Source: Thermoplasmata archaeon
Lineage (GTDB): Archaea; Thermoplasmatota; Thermoplasmata; Lutacidiplasmatales; UBA184
Assembly (NCBI GenBank): GCA_022750205.1
Contig: JAKIWD010000004.1
Span: forward strand, 1-40,838
Length of the DNA stretch: 40,838 nt
Direction: 5' to 3'
The translations under genes were made by a program, and so were the position numbers. How positions within the stretch are numbered: the first letter of the stretch is position 1; each line of letters begins with the position of its first letter. The notes under the pieces were generated by a model. It was given only the letters and a program-made list of their open reading frames with translations, made no database searches and was not told the origin of the DNA. This document shows, piece by piece, positions 18,935-29,796 of this stretch.

Positions 18935-19540
18935 ATGGTTAAACCGCCCGGGCCCCCTCCGCCCACAGCGGGGTGGGAAGTGGCGGATCGCGCGTATCAC
19001 CGCCCACGCTGGCTCGTACCGGTTGCCATCGCGACGGTGGTGGGTTTGACCCTCAGTGGGTTCGTCGCCGCGGGCTCCCTGAAGGTGACCAAGGGGCCCA
19101 CCGAGCACGAGATCGGCAACTACGTCGCAGCCTCCAACGTCGGGACGTGGTGGAGCGTCGTCAAGCTCGCGACGACCACGTTGCCGTCCGGGCCGACCGC
19201 CCCGAGCAACACGACTGCGGCTCCTACGGTATTGCCGAGCAACGGCACGGTGAGCTACGGTCTCAACGGTGGGGCCAGCGGAGGCGCCGCCCTGCTCTGG
19301 ATCTTCCAGGCGCTCGTCACGGCCCCCCTCAATACCGAGATCGAGCTCGAATTGAATTACTCGTTGAGCGGCAACACGAGCCGCTTCACGGTCTACCTCG
19401 AAACCCCGTCTTCGGCTTTCTCGGGCACGCTCGATGTCCGCCTCTACTACTCCATCGCCGCCTCGGCCCTCTCCGGGGGCACGATCCAGAGCGTCACCGA
19501 GCTCTCCGCGAAGTGCCTGACCGTCGGGACGTGTCCATGA
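18935..19540 (+). CDS. Small membrane-anchored surface protein, TWW/CP-terminal family, copy 1
   Basis: 201-residue protein, family not recognised. A cytoplasmic N-terminus (PPGPPPPTAGWE) precedes one hydrophobic segment (WLVPVAIATVVGLTLSGFVAAG), then a Thr/Ser-rich extracytoplasmic domain with sequons (NTT, NGT, NYS, NTS). It shares with the next two genes a GTWW motif shortly after the membrane segment, a strand FTVYLETPSSAFSGTLDVRLYY and the exact C-terminal end C-LTV-GTCP. The two terminal cysteines could form a small disulphide loop outside the cell. The stop overlaps the next start as ATGA (19537-19540), so the pair is co-translated. A TATA-like element lies 34 bases upstream. Confidence 0.7.
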   Translation: MVKPPGPPPPTAGWEVADRAYHRPRWLVPVAIATVVGLTLSGFVAAGSLKVTKGPTEHEIGNYVAASNVGTWWSVVKLATTTLPSGPTAPSNTTAAPTVLPSNGTVSYGLNGGASGGAALLWIFQALVTAPLNTEIELELNYSLSGNTSRFTVYLETPSSAFSGTLDVRLYYSIAASALSGGTIQSVTELSAKCLTVGTCP

Positions 19541-20085
19541 GGCTGCAGGAGCTCCATCGCCGGAGGATGTTCGTTGCCCTACTCGTCGTGGGGTTGGGCA
19601 TCGCCGGGTTCTCCGGGGGCGTGATCGGAGCGGCATTGACGGTGAAATCCGGTACCGAGACCGCCGATGGGGCGGCCGAGACCGGCGCTGCGATCACCTG
19701 GTGGTCGCAGACGGCGATCTCGCTCGCCACCATCCCATCTCCTGCGCCGGGGGTGGCGAATGCCAGCGAAACGACACCGACCCTGCTTACGGGAAGCAAT
19801 GCGTCGTACGTGTTCGTGACCGCGAAAGCGAACGACTCGGCGCTCCGCTGGGACTTCCAACTCAAGACGCCGCCCGTCCTCACCGAGTTCGAACTCACCG
19901 TCACGATCCTGAACCTTTCCGCGTCGACCCCCACGTCGGTGACGGTGTACCTCGAGACACCGGCGACGTCGCCCTCCGGGACGGTCCTCGTCAGTCTCTA
20001 CTTCGACCAGGGCGCCGGGGCCGCCGGCTTCCGCAACGTGAGCCAGGTCTCCCAGGAGTGCTCGGCCTTCGGCACGTGTCCGTAA
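19537..20085 (+). CDS. Small membrane-anchored surface protein, TWW/CP-terminal family, copy 2
   Basis: 182-residue paralogue of its two neighbours. Basic N-terminus (MRLQELHRRR), one hydrophobic segment (MFVALLVVGLGIAGFSGGVIGAAL), then LTVKSGTETADGAAETGAAITWWSQTAISLATIPSP, a beta-rich body with NAS, NDS, NLS and NVS sequons, the strand VTVYLETPATSPSGTVLVSLYF and the terminal VSQECSAFGTCP. The start is the ATG in the ATGA overlap with copy 1; the frame is open upstream to 18973 but only as a shadow of copy 1. The signal resembles that of secreted beta-sandwich subunits, for example TasA/camelysin-like fibre proteins, but there is no sequence proof. Confidence 0.7.
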   Translation: MRLQELHRRRMFVALLVVGLGIAGFSGGVIGAALTVKSGTETADGAAETGAAITWWSQTAISLATIPSPAPGVANASETTPTLLTGSNASYVFVTAKANDSALRWDFQLKTPPVLTEFELTVTILNLSASTPTSVTVYLETPATSPSGTVLVSLYFDQGAGAAGFRNVSQVSQECSAFGTCP

Positions 20086-20124
20086 TCGCTCACTCCTTCC
20101 ACTCCGCCCGACTGCCCGCCCCAA

Positions 20125-20135
20125 CTTCAAATAGG
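20125..20135 (+). promoter_or_regulatory. TATA-like element for copy 3 of the TWW family
   Basis: CTTCAAATAGG, centred about 46 bases before ATG 20176, which predicts a short leader of about 20 bases. The same CTTCAAATAGGG string occurs at 15197-15208, there most usefully read on the opposite strand. It shows that copy 3 can be transcribed independently of copies 1 and 2. Confidence 0.45.
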
Positions 20136-20175
20136 GCGACACTCCATCCCGCGGCACTCCGGGGGTCCCAGCCGC

Positions 20176-20736
20176 ATGAAGCATACTCGAGTATCGGTCA
20201 AGGCGATCTACCTCGCGACCGCCCTTAGCTTGGCCGCCTTCGTCGGCGGCTATGCGATGGCCGGTGCGTTGACCATCAACTCCAGCGGTACCGAGGCCGC
20301 CAGTGGCAACTTCGAAACTACCTCCGCGATTACCTGGTGGACTCAGGCCTCGGTCGGTCTGGCCTCGACCCCGAGTCCCCTCCCGACGAGCTTGGCCTCG
20401 ACCACCGCCACGAGCCCCGTCTCCCTGCCGGCGACAAGCTCTGGGTTGATGATCAATGCCGGCACGGTCGGCAATGTGGCGCACTACTTCAAAATGACCG
20501 AATCGACCGGGGCGCCGACCTCGACCGAGCTCGAGATCGTCTTCTCCATCTCGACCGGGGCGGGGCCCACGATCACCACCGTGACCGTCTTCATCGAGTC
20601 CCAGGCGACCGCCCCGTCGTCGGCCCAGACCTACACGCTCTACTACGACCTCGGATCGGCGGCTTCGTCGAGCATCGTGCTGAACAGCGTCGAGCAGATC
20701 TCGCAGCAGTGCACCTCGGTCGGTAGCTGCCCGTAG
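20176..20736 (+). CDS. Small membrane-anchored surface protein, TWW/CP-terminal family, copy 3
   Basis: 186-residue third paralogue. Basic start (MKHTRVSVK), hydrophobic segment IYLATALSLAAFVGGYAMAG, then ALTINSSGTEAASGNFETTSAITWWTQASVGLAS, a Ser/Thr-rich beta domain containing TTVTVFIESQATAPSSAQTYTLYY, and the terminal ISQQCTSVGSCP. The GTEAA...ITWW block is closest to copy 2. It carries almost no charged residues after the anchor, as expected for a surface or filament subunit. It has its own promoter but lies only 14 bases from the zinc-ribbon membrane protein downstream, suggesting joint expression with it. No function can be assigned. Confidence 0.7.
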   Translation: MKHTRVSVKAIYLATALSLAAFVGGYAMAGALTINSSGTEAASGNFETTSAITWWTQASVGLASTPSPLPTSLASTTATSPVSLPATSSGLMINAGTVGNVAHYFKMTESTGAPTSTELEIVFSISTGAGPTITTVTVFIESQATAPSSAQTYTLYYDLGSAASSSIVLNSVEQISQQCTSVGSCP

Positions 20737-25632: not shown

Positions 25633-25797
25633 CTAGAACGTCTCGGCGTACGTTAGAATGTAGAGCGCTCCGACGACCATGGTGGTCAGGAGTACGAGCA
25701 GTGCGACGGGATTAGAGCCAAAATGCCAGACCGTCACCCCGATCAGGGCTGCGGGGAGCAGCTGGGTGACCAGGAGGGCGCCGACCCGTCCGTCCAT
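25633..25797 (-). CDS. 54-residue double-span membrane protein
   Basis: A short open frame encoding MDGRVGALLVTQLLPAALIG and then VTVWHFG, followed by a second hydrophobic run from NPVALLVLLTTMV and ending GALYILTYAETF. Two membrane spans separated by a short His/Asn turn are predicted. Support: ATG start with a TATA-like element centred 27 bases upstream, uninterrupted codons with GC-rich third positions, and placement in a gap that exactly fits it between the PAC2 gene (convergent, six bases away) and the FtsZ-like gene. Function unknown. Membership of an archaeal small-membrane-protein family is likely but cannot be tested here. Confidence 0.6.
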   Translation of the reverse strand: MDGRVGALLVTQLLPAALIGVTVWHFGSNPVALLVLLTTMVVGALYILTYAETF

Positions 25798-25853: not shown

Positions 25854-26690
25854 TCATCGCAGCATCTCGGGACCGCCGGTCGGGGACAGCACCTCGAAGG
25901 TGAGCTCGGCGATCCCCGCGTCGAGCGTGGGGGCCAACGGCATCGGGGTAAGCGGAGGCTCGGGCACCCGGGGCGGCATCGGATCGCGCACCTGTGGCGG
26001 CGGTGCGCGGACCGGTTCCGACTCGGCGAGTCGCTCGATCCGACGCGCCTCGACGACGGCCTCGATCGGCGCCACGATGGAATGTTCGATGTAGGCACCG
26101 ACGACCTCGGCCCAGTGGTGAGCGACCCGGTTGAACGGGAGCGAGCCCTGGTGCGGGACGAGTGTCTCGTTGTCGAGCATGTGAAGCCAGCCGCGGCCTG
26201 TCTCGCGCTTATCGATGAAGCCGTCCACGAAATGCAGACGGCCCAGCGCCCGCTCGGCGGTCGCGCGTCGCTCGCCCTCGGCGCGGAACGGTTTGACCGC
26301 GAATACGCTCACGAACTCCGCCGACCGGGCCGCCGCGTCGAGGACGAACGGAAGGGCACCCGTGCCCGTCCCTCCGCCCAGGCTGGCGAGGATCGTGACG
26401 AAGGTCGTCCCTTCGAAGATGCGTTCGAGCGCGGGCTCGGCCGCGTGGGCCAAGCGGGCGCCGGCGGTCGGCGACCCGCCCGTCCCGGCGTCGATCGCGC
26501 TCGGCGTGCCCAGGAAAACCCGCCGGTCGAACTCCTCAGCGTCCTGGACGCGGCTATCGCAGTTGACGGCCACCGTCTCCAGATACCGAAGGTGCTGGCG
26601 TGCGATCTCGCGTCCGATCCGGATGGCGCCCCCGCCCACGCATACGAGAACGAACCGGACATCGTGGCCGAGACGCAAGGTCTCGATCAC
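25854..26690 (-). CDS. FtsZ/tubulin-like GTP-binding protein lacking the usual C-terminal domain
   Basis: 278-residue member of the tubulin/FtsZ superfamily. The T4 signature GGGTGTGA (105-112) is intact, within TFVTILASLGGGTGTGALPFVLDAA; VFAVKPFRAEGERR matches the FtsZ strand after it. The T1 loop reads GGGAIRIG (19-26) instead of GAGGN. The segment NRVAHHWAEVVGAYIEHSI fits helix H7, but afterwards comes only a Pro-rich stretch (about 225-255) and a short end, so the T7 synergy loop and the activation domain are missing. It could bind GTP but hardly form a normal FtsZ active site. GTG 26690 has GAGGAAGGG before it; an earlier GTG at 26771 would shorten the gap to the upstream regulator but the added stretch has weaker codon bias. 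Confidence 0.78.
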   Translation of the reverse strand: MIETLRLGHDVRFVLVCVGGGAIRIGREIARQHLRYLETVAVNCDSRVQDAEEFDRRVFLGTPSAIDAGTGGSPTAGARLAHAAEPALERIFEGTTFVTILASLGGGTGTGALPFVLDAAARSAEFVSVFAVKPFRAEGERRATAERALGRLHFVDGFIDKRETGRGWLHMLDNETLVPHQGSLPFNRVAHHWAEVVGAYIEHSIVAPIEAVVEARRIERLAESEPVRAPPPQVRDPMPPRVPEPPLTPMPLAPTLDAGIAELTFEVLSPTGGPEMLR

Positions 26691-26799
26691 CCCTTCCTCG
26701 AGCTCGTCATCGCGACTGTCGGCTAGATCGTTCCGGCGTTCCGCGCTCCTCGAACCGTGCACCGCACCCACCCCTCTTTGTCGCGTCGGACCTCGGCCG

Positions 26800-27297
26800 C
26801 TAGCGGCCGACGAACCCCCGATCTTTCAGGCGCTGGCCCGCCTTGCCCAGGGCCTCGACCTGGGCGCGGGCGGCGGCGGCCTCGTGGACGAACCGGCTGT
26901 GGCGCTGGACAAGGTCGGCGACCTGCCCTTGCATCTCCCCGACCCGCACGAGTTCCGCGAGCAGATCGCCCAGCGGCCGGTCGTTGCCGACCAGCTTGGC
27001 GTGGACGATGAGCATCGCCACCTCTTCGCGTCGCAGGCGCACGGGCACTTCGACGATCTCTCCGGCTTCGGCTGCCGGTACGACCGCGGACATGGCCCGG
27101 TCTCGGAGGAACGAACGCAGCGCTTCCCGCATCAGCTCCGACCGCGTCCGGAACTCGCCGTCGGCGACGAACGAGTCCATCAGCTGGAGCTCTCGGCGGT
27201 TGCACCGTAGGGCGATGCGCTCATCCTCCGGCCCGATCCGATCGTCCGACGGCTCGCGCGCGTCGGATGCCGGGCGGTTCCGGGTTTTGTCGAACAC
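26800..27297 (-). CDS. Ribbon-helix-helix (CopG-type) transcription regulator, tandem RHH
   Basis: 165-residue DNA-binding protein. Residues 26-68 form a classic RHH unit (ERIALRCNRRELQLMDSFVA, then EFRTRSELMREALRSFLRDRA). A second strand-helix-helix pattern follows at about 80-120 (EIVEVPVRLRREEVAMLIVH, PLGDLLAELVRVGE), so the protein may be a pseudo-dimer with two RHH units. The C-terminus is helical, with a possible coiled coil. It is immediately upstream of the FtsZ-like gene, which recalls the haloarchaeal CdrS-ftsZ2 arrangement where an RHH protein controls cell-division genes. GTG start; TATA-like CTTAAA (27328-27333) centred about 34 bases upstream. Confidence 0.8.
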   Translation of the reverse strand: MFDKTRNRPASDAREPSDDRIGPEDERIALRCNRRELQLMDSFVADGEFRTRSELMREALRSFLRDRAMSAVVPAAEAGEIVEVPVRLRREEVAMLIVHAKLVGNDRPLGDLLAELVRVGEMQGQVADLVQRHSRFVHEAAAARAQVEALGKAGQRLKDRGFVGR

Positions 27298-27660
27298 GAC
27301 TGGGCGCTTCTATGCAAAACCCAGCTACTTAAACGAATGCTCGCGCCTGCGGCGGAGCCGCGCTGAAGCGGTGCCGCCCGCCGAAAACTGACGTGTCGAA
27401 CAAAGCTGCGCGGCCGTCGAACGTGGTCCCGGAACGCTGGCTCGGCCGTATAACCGGTTCGATTTTGGCCCGACTTTCGTGCCGCGGCGGCCACTGCGCA
27501 CTCATGCGCATCGACTCTCTCCCGGTCCGATGAAGTCGCGACCGCAGGCGGTCGTCTCGGCCAACGTCTAAATACGTGCCCGAAGCATTTCACTGACGGT
27601 CATCTTTGGGTAGGGGGAATCATTAGCGAACGTTCTCACCCCGCTCGCGCCCGGCGGGGA
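27298..27660. promoter_or_regulatory. 363-base divergent regulatory region with palindromes
   Basis: No gene seen. Toward the RHH gene lies CTTAAA (27328-27333). Toward the pilin gene lies TCTAAATA (27568-27575), predicting a leader of about 60 bases. A further AT-rich stretch, GTATAACCGG, lies near 27448-27457. Two palindromic sites stand out: TGCGCA-CTCA-TGCGCA (27495-27510) and CGACCGC-AG-GCGGTCG (27539-27554), the latter ending 14 bases before the pilin TATA element. Such short paired inverted repeats are the kind of site RHH dimers bind; regulation by the adjacent RHH protein is an inference. Confidence 0.5.
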
Positions 27661-29796
27661 ATGCGCCGCCGCGCGTCGCGCGGAGTTTCCGATGTCATCG
27701 CCACGATCTTGCTGCTGGGCCTGACGGTCACGCTGTTCGCCTCGATCTTCTTCTTCGTCAACACGTTCCCTGTCCCGCCACCGCAGCCGGAGAACCAGTT
27801 CACCGCCGGACTGACCTACGGCGGGTCTGGCGCACTGACGATCGAGACCGTCTCGATCACCCATCTCGCCGGGCCTTCGATCCCGAACAACGACCAAGTC
27901 TACATCACGTCGGCCGCGCACCCGTCGCGGAACCCTCCTCCCTTCCTGGTGAGCGCGGGGCTGTCCGGTTCGGGAGCCTGGAACTTGGGGCAGGTCTGGA
28001 CCAAGAACATCTCGACCTACGCGCTGACGGCGCCGGACAACCTCACGGTCTCGGTCGTCTCTGCGTCCCAGCTCATCTTCCGCATCTCGCTTCCCGGCAG
28101 CAACCCGAACACCCCGCCGGACTTCATCGCGGTCGGGACCACCCCCGCCGCCCCGGCCGTCGGCGTTGCGATCGTCGTGTACGCCCAGATCGCCGATTCC
28201 AACTTGAAGTCGAACTCGGTCTACGTCAACTACTCCGAACTTCCCGGCAGCGGCGGTGCCTCCAAGCACGTCATGACCTTCTCCGGGGCGACCGGGTTGT
28301 GGACGTTCACGATCCCGTCGGGGACGACCAACGCCGCGGGAACGTACTACCTGTTCATCAACGCCTCCGACAACAACGGGCTGAAGAACTCGGTGGCGTT
28401 CGCCGTGACGCTGACGGCGCCCAACGCCCCGATCACCGTCTCCCTGACCGCGACCCCCGCGACGATCGTGGCCGGTTCCGCGGTCACGCTGACGGCGCAG
28501 GTCGTCAACCTCGGCTCGGGTGCTGGGCTCGCCACCGTTTCCTTCACCGCGAACGCCGCCGCGGTCGGCAGCTCCTCGCAGTCGATCGCCGCCGGCGGCG
28601 TCGCCAGCTTCACCCAGGCCTGGACCCCTTCGGTCGTCGGGGTGTACCAACTGTTCGCCGTGGCGAGCATCGCCGGCGGCTCGAGCGCGAGCGCGGCGCT
28701 CAACGTCACCGTGTTCCCCGCCATCCTGCTCCTGGCCCACAACGTCGCCAGTGGGACGAACCAGCCCGACAACTCCAGCGGTTGGTTGGCGTCGGAGCTC
28801 ACGGCCGACGGGATCCCGTACTCCGCCCAGTTCGTCTCGTGCAAGACCGCATTGACTTCCGGGCTGTTCAGCAGCTACAAAGTGGCCATCGTTGACTTCG
28901 GGAGCGCGTTCGGCTCTTGCCCGAAGAGCGCCTCGACGACCGACCAATCGGCGATCACCGGCGCCTCCACCACGAGCTTCTGGGTCGTGGGGTCGATCGC
29001 GTTCGGCGCGGCGGCGTGCAACGCGAACTTCAACTCGGCGTTCTTCAGCCTCCTGGGCGCGAAGTACACGGCAGGACAAACGTGCATGACGCTCCCCAAT
29101 GCCACGGGCACGGCCACCTACGCGGCCAGTCTCGCGAGCGGGGTCCGCGCCGATGGGGTCCCGGCGTCGATCGTCATCAACAAGACCATTGCGGGGACGA
29201 GTAACGAGGTCCCGTACGATTACTTCAAGATCGGCGCCACGAACACGGCCTATCTCACCGTGGGCGGCAACCCGGTGGGAACCTGGGCGTCCGGAGCGGT
29301 CAAAGGGGCCGCCCTCGCCTCCGAGCCCGCCTTGCTGGCCGCGGCGCTCCCGACCAGCAACAACTGGGGCACCGGTGCCGCCGGCGCCGCCGTCACCTAC
29401 AACATCGTCGACTGGCTGTCCGGATTGACCAATGCCACTTCCAACGGCCGTGCCCTCGCCGACTACGGCGTGGCCGAGACCCTCGTCGTGGGCGTCAACC
29501 ACGCGCAGCTCACGAACGTCTACGCTGCGATCCGCGCGAACGGGCCGATCGGCGGCCCGGTCACCGTGACGCTCTACGTGAACGGCACGCCCGCGCTCTT
29601 CGGCGGGGCGCCGGTGGAGACCCAGGCCACGGTGACCGGCGGAGGGGGCGTGGTGTTCGTCTCACTCACGTGGCAGGCGCCCTCGTCGGGCCGCTACACG
29701 CTGTCCATCGTGATCACAGCGGCGGGCAACGACTACGACATCGCCAACGACCAGCTGGGGATGTCCATCCTCAACCAGGCGACGAACTTCGCGTAG
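27661..29796 (+). CDS. Large type IV pilin-like surface protein
   Basis: 711-residue protein beginning with an archaeal class III (prepilin) signal: RRRASRG followed by VSDVIATILLLGLTVTLFAS, with likely prepilin-peptidase cleavage after Gly8. The hydrophobic helix would pack in a pilus-type core or anchor the protein. Behind it are beta-type domains: an Ig/CARDB-like repeat (ITVSLTATPATIVAGSAVTL to about residue 350), then an alpha/beta-looking region ILLLAHNVASGTNQPDNSSG to about 600 that suggests an amidotransferase-like fold, then another CARDB-like domain (VTVTLYVNGTPALFGG). Sequons are frequent. It is far longer than ordinary pilins (100-200 residues), so it may be a minor tip or adhesive pilin. 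The long antisense frame across it is a shadow. Confidence 0.8.
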   Translation: MRRRASRGVSDVIATILLLGLTVTLFASIFFFVNTFPVPPPQPENQFTAGLTYGGSGALTIETVSITHLAGPSIPNNDQVYITSAAHPSRNPPPFLVSAGLSGSGAWNLGQVWTKNISTYALTAPDNLTVSVVSASQLIFRISLPGSNPNTPPDFIAVGTTPAAPAVGVAIVVYAQIADSNLKSNSVYVNYSELPGSGGASKHVMTFSGATGLWTFTIPSGTTNAAGTYYLFINASDNNGLKNSVAFAVTLTAPNAPITVSLTATPATIVAGSAVTLTAQVVNLGSGAGLATVSFTANAAAVGSSSQSIAAGGVASFTQAWTPSVVGVYQLFAVASIAGGSSASAALNVTVFPAILLLAHNVASGTNQPDNSSGWLASELTADGIPYSAQFVSCKTALTSGLFSSYKVAIVDFGSAFGSCPKSASTTDQSAITGASTTSFWVVGSIAFGAAACNANFNSAFFSLLGAKYTAGQTCMTLPNATGTATYAASLASGVRADGVPASIVINKTIAGTSNEVPYDYFKIGATNTAYLTVGGNPVGTWASGAVKGAALASEPALLAAALPTSNNWGTGAAGAAVTYNIVDWLSGLTNATSNGRALADYGVAETLVVGVNHAQLTNVYAAIRANGPIGGPVTVTLYVNGTPALFGGAPVETQATVTGGGGVVFVSLTWQAPSSGRYTLSIVITAAGNDYDIANDQLGMSILNQATNFA

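Follow-up and report, generated by a model that had tools for sequence, protein, structure and literature searches.

An FtsZ-family protein ending before the T7 loop, encoded behind a ribbon-helix-helix gene in Thermoplasmata

INTRODUCTION

FtsZ and the tubulins are understood as polymers in which the active site of each subunit is completed by the next, and a subunit without the T7 face can neither activate its neighbor's GTP hydrolysis nor extend a normal protofilament. What, then, might an archaeal cell do with an FtsZ-family protein that stops before the T7 loop and is encoded directly behind a ribbon-helix-helix (RHH) gene? The question is raised by a locus in a 40,838-nucleotide stretch of archaeal DNA, analyzed here at its full length and referred to as the window. 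Its host belongs to the Lutacidiplasmatales (UBA184) and is represented by a MAG of 2.24 Mb (88.6% complete, 7.6% contamination); by name, its relatives are Thermoplasmata MAGs of this order, among them Candidatus Lutacidiplasma silvani and UBA184 (PMC9287336). The reading that we tentatively prefer is that of an RHH-autoregulated, GTP-liganded protein that would not polymerize and could help to control division or shape as a switch or adaptor, with a miniprotein as its membrane tether in Lutacidiplasmatales. Judged from sequence, the protein may plausibly take part in division or in shaping the cell.

RESULTS

A GTPase domain that ends after helix H7

The original prediction had read the T1 loop of the window protein as GGGAIRIG and the T4 motif as GGGTGTGA, both correctly, and had recognized an FtsZ/tubulin GTPase domain from the T4 motif and the strand after it. 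This assignment was borne out by the Pfam Tubulin model (PF00091), the best model for the protein (E = 3.4e-16, residues 42 to 179, above the curated cut-off), and by Foldseek, for which all 50 of the 50 PDB matches listed for the AlphaFold2 model were FtsZ (best E = 4.5e-12; 4u39 was among them for its FtsZ chains only). A profile of 22 relatives likewise matched FtsZ structures at 1e-19, with coverage mainly of the N-terminal half. Placement outside the tubulin superfamily was ruled out by these Pfam, profile and Foldseek matches.

The same prediction had the protein turn Pro-rich after H7 and lack both the T7 loop and the C-terminal domain, which was confirmed by structure prediction: the AlphaFold2 model (mean pLDDT 83) consisted of a Rossmann GTPase core with H7 as its long last helix (residues 213 to 251), followed by a Pro-rich tail of low confidence. 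On TIGR00065, the model of full FtsZ, the protein scored 77 bits versus a cut-off of 295; the GTPase domain was present, and the T7 NxDxxD loop and FtsZ_C were absent. Of the 40 family members that were scanned, none had FtsZ_C and all carried the Tubulin domain. The canonical FtsZ L003 was alignable only up to residue 192 to 245, its own T7 motif beginning at ∼240, and when the C-terminal halves of three FtsZs were compared with every reading frame at 18 loci, the window's among them, the best E was 0.27. These three results exclude a frameshift or split gene that hides the C-terminal domain. That the gene is an assembly artefact or a decaying pseudogene is scarcely conceivable: the contigs do come from MAGs, and the window genome is incomplete and contaminated to the degree given above, but dozens of independent species showed the same architecture, their frames intact and under purifying selection, and no hidden C-terminal half was found.

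Following the Pro-rich linker, copies from Lutacidiplasmatales (family f1) end in a peptide resembling ELTFEV, which may be reminiscent of the SepF-binding C-terminal peptide of FtsZ. This peptide varies by family (ELTFEV, LDDFLENY and VLPIGM), and partners may therefore differ between families.

What the protein lacks is precisely the half that would contact the next subunit, as expected under the main rival to the switch or adaptor reading. According to this rival, the protein is a filament cap or poison subunit whose nucleotide face docks onto the T7 face left free at one end of a filament of canonical FtsZ or of the RHH-linked full-length paralogue; since a capping subunit has no T7 face, nothing would add beyond it, and filaments would be limited in length or positioned. 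We regard a cap as rather unlikely, for reasons that emerge from the sequences and genomes compared below.

An RHH gene and operator-like repeats upstream

The genes for the RHH protein, the FtsZ-like protein and a miniprotein follow one another in operon-like order on the minus strand (Table 1). The original prediction did not include the third gene, the repeated operator-like sites or, at L004 of this genome (see below), another pairing of RHH and FtsZ-like genes.

Table 1. Coordinates of the promoter elements and genes of the locus within the window
Feature	Position	Strand	Remarks
Operator-like site 1, TGTTCGACA	27394-27402	-	∼105 bp upstream of RHH start; extended TGTTCGACACGTC at 27390-27402
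TATA-box-like TTTAAGTA	27326-27333	-	36 bp before RHH start; same offset in largest locus group
Operator-like site 2, TGTTCGACA	27288-27296	-	Overlaps RHH start codon; offset +1 in largest locus group
Tandem RHH protein, presumed autoregulator	26800-27297	-	165 aa; gene order kept in relatives
T7-less FtsZ	25854-26771	-	305 aa, GTG start at 26771; tubulin/FtsZ GTPase domain to H7, then a Pro-rich linker and a conserved peptide (ELTFEV) at the C-terminus
Two-TM (predicted) miniprotein, third gene	25633-25797	-	54 aa, two hydrophobic stretches, conserved SNP turn

The RHH stop codon and the GTG of the FtsZ-like gene are separated by 28 bp in the window and by 28 to 62 bp in most of 27 measured relatives. 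Taken alone, the first RHH of the window protein is weak (RHH_1, E = 0.0044, below the cut-off; CdrS NCBIfam model, 9e-5). RHH_1 was matched in 14 of 16 family members (best 9.5e-8), and in L057, a relative from f9, the second repeat was matched by NikR/ParD models, so the earlier description as a tandem RHH protein was correct. On the CdrS model NF058555, the window protein reached 22.4 bits versus a cut-off of 100; an RHH protein of the L061 type, paired with full-length FtsZ, reached 73.8 bits. Of the suggested CdrS-ftsZ2-related module, the kinship to RHH-linked (CdrS-type) loci held, and the RHH gene does lie immediately upstream of an ftsZ-family gene on the same strand, but the curated model does not class the RHH protein as CdrS.

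Within −300 to +40 of the RHH start (29 loci, 9,860 bp), TGT(T/C)CGACA occurred 54 times, versus 4 times across the remaining 346,925 bp, and all upstream copies shared one orientation. In the largest locus group, copies lie at −105 and +1, on either side of the TATA-like box (−36). The extended 13-mer TGTTCGACACGTC had a single exact occurrence in the window genome, at the RHH promoter. L004 carried a related but different operator repeat, TGTCTGACA, and in other families repeats seen by eye close to the TATA box were TGTCCGACA, TATGACA and GTCCTAC. Because the operator-like repeats concentrate around the gene's own TATA box, we infer from sequence that the RHH protein autoregulates its operon. 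A wide RHH regulon was rejected, as exact matches to the 13-mer across ten genomes lay almost only at its own promoter, along with scattered one-mismatch sites.

Toxin-antitoxin pairs often have an RHH antitoxin and operator repeats, and the regulator gene comes first in the pair described here. That the RHH protein is an antitoxin against a division-blocking FtsZ-fragment toxin is nevertheless extremely improbable, given that the pair is retained class-wide, with the same locus neighbors in most Lutacidiplasmatales and low dN/dS, and is present where no canonical FtsZ target was found (see below). A different proposal is that the GTPase domain binds the RHH protein and tunes operator occupancy by GTP or division state, acting as a sensor in transcription control and not as a cytoskeletal element. 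This would suit the RHH gene adjoining the T7-less FtsZ gene wherever inspected, in nine families, while other neighbors change, as well as an operator motif found mostly at its own promoter and a GTP pocket that most families preserve. Simple autoregulation accounts for these observations as well, however, the third gene of the operon encodes a predicted membrane protein, and CdrS regulates ftsZ2 with no such feedback reported (PMC7439475); we consider a sensor distinctly unlikely.

A third gene in Lutacidiplasmatales

The miniprotein, 54 to 65 aa long across Lutacidiplasmatales, had no Pfam match. Its gene lies on the same strand, 47 to 133 bp downstream of the FtsZ-like gene in most of 27 loci measured. 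Among 30 f1 loci fetched, the RHH gene was present in 29 and the miniprotein gene in 28; in the genome of locus L055, the RHH gene was found at locus L202. In genus g2 (L071 and L072), the three genes were kept together with different flanking genes. dN/dS ranged from 0.05 to 0.39 across the three genes (seven species pairs) and from 0.10 to 0.37 for the miniprotein (six species pairs); the three-gene group is under purifying selection. Hand counting gave a strong match (E < 1e-40) for the FtsZ-like protein in 72 of 103 f1 genomes, and the ∼31 MAGs without one included some at 88 to 93% completeness. Since the miniprotein gene was seen only in Lutacidiplasmatales, membrane tethering by its product cannot be general.

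Divergent from the RHH gene, a plus-strand gene at 27661 to 29796 encodes a 711-aa protein with an archaeal type IV pilin N-terminus and a CARDB repeat, and it often neighbors the RHH gene in relatives, too. Elsewhere in the window (18980 to 20736, plus strand) are three tandem paralogues of 172 to 186 aa with an N-terminal hydrophobic segment.

A family found throughout the class

Profiles of the T7-less proteins were run against Thermoplasmata and loci were inspected, which revealed an RHH gene followed by a T7-less FtsZ gene in nine families (f1, f3, f5, f8, f9, f22, f29, f30 and f32). The restriction to Lutacidiplasmatales that came out of the first searches was overturned by the f9, Methanomethylophilaceae (f8) and later matches. 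Rather than a haloarchaeal-type FtsZ2 operon, the module represents a Thermoplasmata family that spans the class and has a third gene in Lutacidiplasmatales. The proteins measured ∼226 to 316 aa in f5, f8, f9, f22, f29, f30 and f32; an AlphaFold model made for the f8 type likewise ended after H7 (pLDDT 84.5), and hhalign linked the Lutacidiplasmatales proteins to the other families through H7 (2e-25). In 293 genomes of the phylum, matches outside Thermoplasmata had full-length frames, the exceptions being a few short ones (G465, G484 and G594); other archaeal phyla were sampled by a pattern-limited scan only. T7-less FtsZ is apparently an undescribed, class-wide Thermoplasmata family, and no T7-less archaeal FtsZ of this kind was reported in the openly accessible literature (subscription papers aside).

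GTP-contact residues of T1 to T6 were largely intact in f8, f9, f22, f29, f30 and f32 (a mixed f3/f30/f32 column was left out of this comparison), and with the pocket intact in most families, we infer that T7-less FtsZ binds GTP. In the Lutacidiplasmatales proteins, the T1 Asn is replaced by Arg and T3 has drifted, so GTP binding is only putative there. In f3, of the same order, L292, L210 and L211 have lost the T1 and T4 GTP motifs and kept the RHH neighbor. For the cap reading, the conservation of nucleotide-face loops in most families is favorable, but the T3 loop and the T1 Asn, the parts that drifted in Lutacidiplasmatales, belong to the interface that a cap would use, and the pair is still kept in f3 (L210 and L292) despite loss of the GTP loops.

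The phylogeny of the GTPase region, proposed as a check, placed 37 T7-less sequences in one clade with moderate support (UFBoot 89, SH-aLRT 50), sister to the RHH-linked full-length FtsZs L061, L062 and L063 (UFBoot 82, aLRT 93). The most divergent rows were left out of this tree, as the full set was blurred by long branches. Several independent truncations are not favored, because the 37 sequences form a single clade. Based on sequence comparison, the family probably goes back to an RHH-linked (CdrS-type) ftsZ locus that was duplicated early in Thermoplasmata, one copy then losing T7 and the C-terminal domain.

Other FtsZs, and genomes in which none was found

The window genome contains four further tubulin-superfamily genes. 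Canonical FtsZ, which the original prediction had suggested looking for, is present besides L004: there are two near-identical copies, possibly a strain mixture in view of the 7.6% contamination, and a second canonical type. SepF is present as well. In L004 (G000:C173), an RHH gene (1064 to 1429) lies directly upstream of an FtsZ-like gene (1435 to 2442), whose product has FtsZ_C and a degraded T7, the second T7 Asp being Ser. Many Thermoplasmata genomes have 5 to 8 FtsZ-family genes, an unusual expansion. No tubulin/FtsZ match was found in several near-complete genomes, some of them single contigs: G127, G136 and G152 (f19) by a Pfam search, and G184, G196, G207 and G237 by the T7-less profile only.

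In favor of a cap, canonical and full-length RHH-linked FtsZ coexist with the T7-less form in f9, f22 and f30, as does canonical FtsZ in Lutacidiplasmatales. The situation differs in f8, the Methanomethylophilaceae, which are gut methylotrophic methanogens. Most of the genomes compared in this analysis are MAGs. All 15 near-complete f8 genomes searched (several single-contig) encode T7-less FtsZ, and a single Pfam model, applied at E ≤ 0.1, detected canonical FtsZ in none of them. Other tubulin matches in these 15 genomes, where present, were weaker than T7-less FtsZ, and G110, G154, G181 and G228 had no tubulin homologue besides it by the same Pfam model and threshold. In the wider search, exactly one match was counted by hand in 56 of the 59 f8 genomes having a match at 1e-32. 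The f8 loci L280 and L281 encode the same proteins as SUSZ01000003.1 (isolate SIG7) and JAFYAH010000022.1 (Candidatus Methanomethylophilaceae archaeon). The copy in G122 is degraded (GGHAGTE at T4), with the RHH pairing kept. SepF was weak or undetected in f8 and clear in related families; in a Snf7 search for an ESCRT/CdvB replacement in f8, even Sulfolobus scored below the cut-off.

These genomes weaken the earlier idea that the protein may cap. The cap model would fit genomes with full FtsZ but not the f8 genomes without another tubulin homologue. Because all 15 f8 genomes keep the T7-less form with canonical FtsZ undetected, its core role need not be capping canonical FtsZ; at least in f8, it probably does something that does not require canonical FtsZ. 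It is possible, though somewhat unlikely, that f8 has no filament-GTPase FtsZ at all, that a nonpolymerizing, RHH-controlled, GTPase-domain-only switch outlived FtsZ there and is relied on for a core task in division or shape, and that the window operon is a membrane-linked version of it. No report of this f8 situation was found in the openly accessible literature.

The f8 genomes also hold further FtsZ relatives. Seven of the weaker matches were inspected (L266 to L272, 266 to 282 aa); they are short, degraded paralogues that lack NxDxxD, and five of them have an RHH-like gene immediately upstream. P2, a second RHH-linked FtsZ-like protein of f8, keeps a C-terminal part but has lost the T7 residues. 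T7-less FtsZ could form a noncanonical polymer, either alone or as a heteropolymer through another interface, or could supply one of two complementary halves with the second RHH-linked FtsZ-like protein (L004, or P2 in f8). The window genome carries both pairs, most of the 15 f8 genomes have both proteins, and L004 and P2 both lack T7 residues; P2 was undetected in several f8 genomes, however, and its sequences are highly divergent, and we judge this explanation highly unlikely.

DISCUSSION

Under the preferred switch or adaptor reading, the RHH protein would set the level of T7-less FtsZ through autoregulation, and T7-less FtsZ would bind GTP. Having no T7 face, it would neither complete a neighbor's active site nor form canonical protofilaments, which is why we propose a switch or adaptor role. 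Its nucleotide face and C-terminal peptide would instead be offered to partners, and in Lutacidiplasmatales the miniprotein would hold it at the membrane.

A conserved branch without the polymerizing half, but with the GTP pocket mostly kept, would show the FtsZ fold working without polymerization. Its persistence where canonical FtsZ was not detected turns division in the f8 gut methanogens into a concrete question with named genes, and the RHH partner with its operator sites gives a direct way into the control of division in archaea. Together, T7-less FtsZ and RHH make cell division in Thermoplasmata newly testable.

Three known systems invite comparison. Chloroplast ARC3 carries a MORN domain, and MciZ is an inhibitor that acts at FtsZ ends. 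By analogy, and in mode of action only, T7-less FtsZ may resemble them as FtsZ-fold or FtsZ-binding proteins that limit filaments without being one. They differ in having no RHH partner and, in ARC3, in the MORN domain; we claim no family link.

Like FtsZl1 (Tubulin_2, PF13809), T7-less FtsZ has a recognized GTPase domain without the canonical C-terminal domain and probably forms no ordinary filaments (PMC2875224). FtsZl1 proteins are long, with a coiled coil and a helical C-terminal domain, occur in vWA/OmpA/kinase operons and have an unrecognizable T6-H7 region (PMC2875224, Makarova and Koonin 2010). In contrast, T7-less FtsZ is short, T6-H7 is present and Tubulin (PF00091) is the best model. 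Tubulin_2 had no match in the window protein at E ≤ 1 and weak secondary matches in 11 of 40 members. Membership in FtsZl1 or FtsZl2 was rejected, as Tubulin_2 is not the main domain and the structural models end after H7 without a further domain (cf. PMC2875224).

The CdrS-FtsZ2 pair, which occurs in Haloarchaea and in further archaea, differs in both of its members. FtsZ2 is a full-length FtsZ, whereas the protein described here ends after H7; the CdrS model has 61 positions, whereas the window RHH protein is a tandem and falls far below the cut-off of that model. The two systems are nevertheless alike in that an RHH gene lies directly upstream of an ftsZ-family gene, with presumed cotranscription (PMC7439475), and in the tree the T7-less clade stands next to RHH-linked FtsZ.
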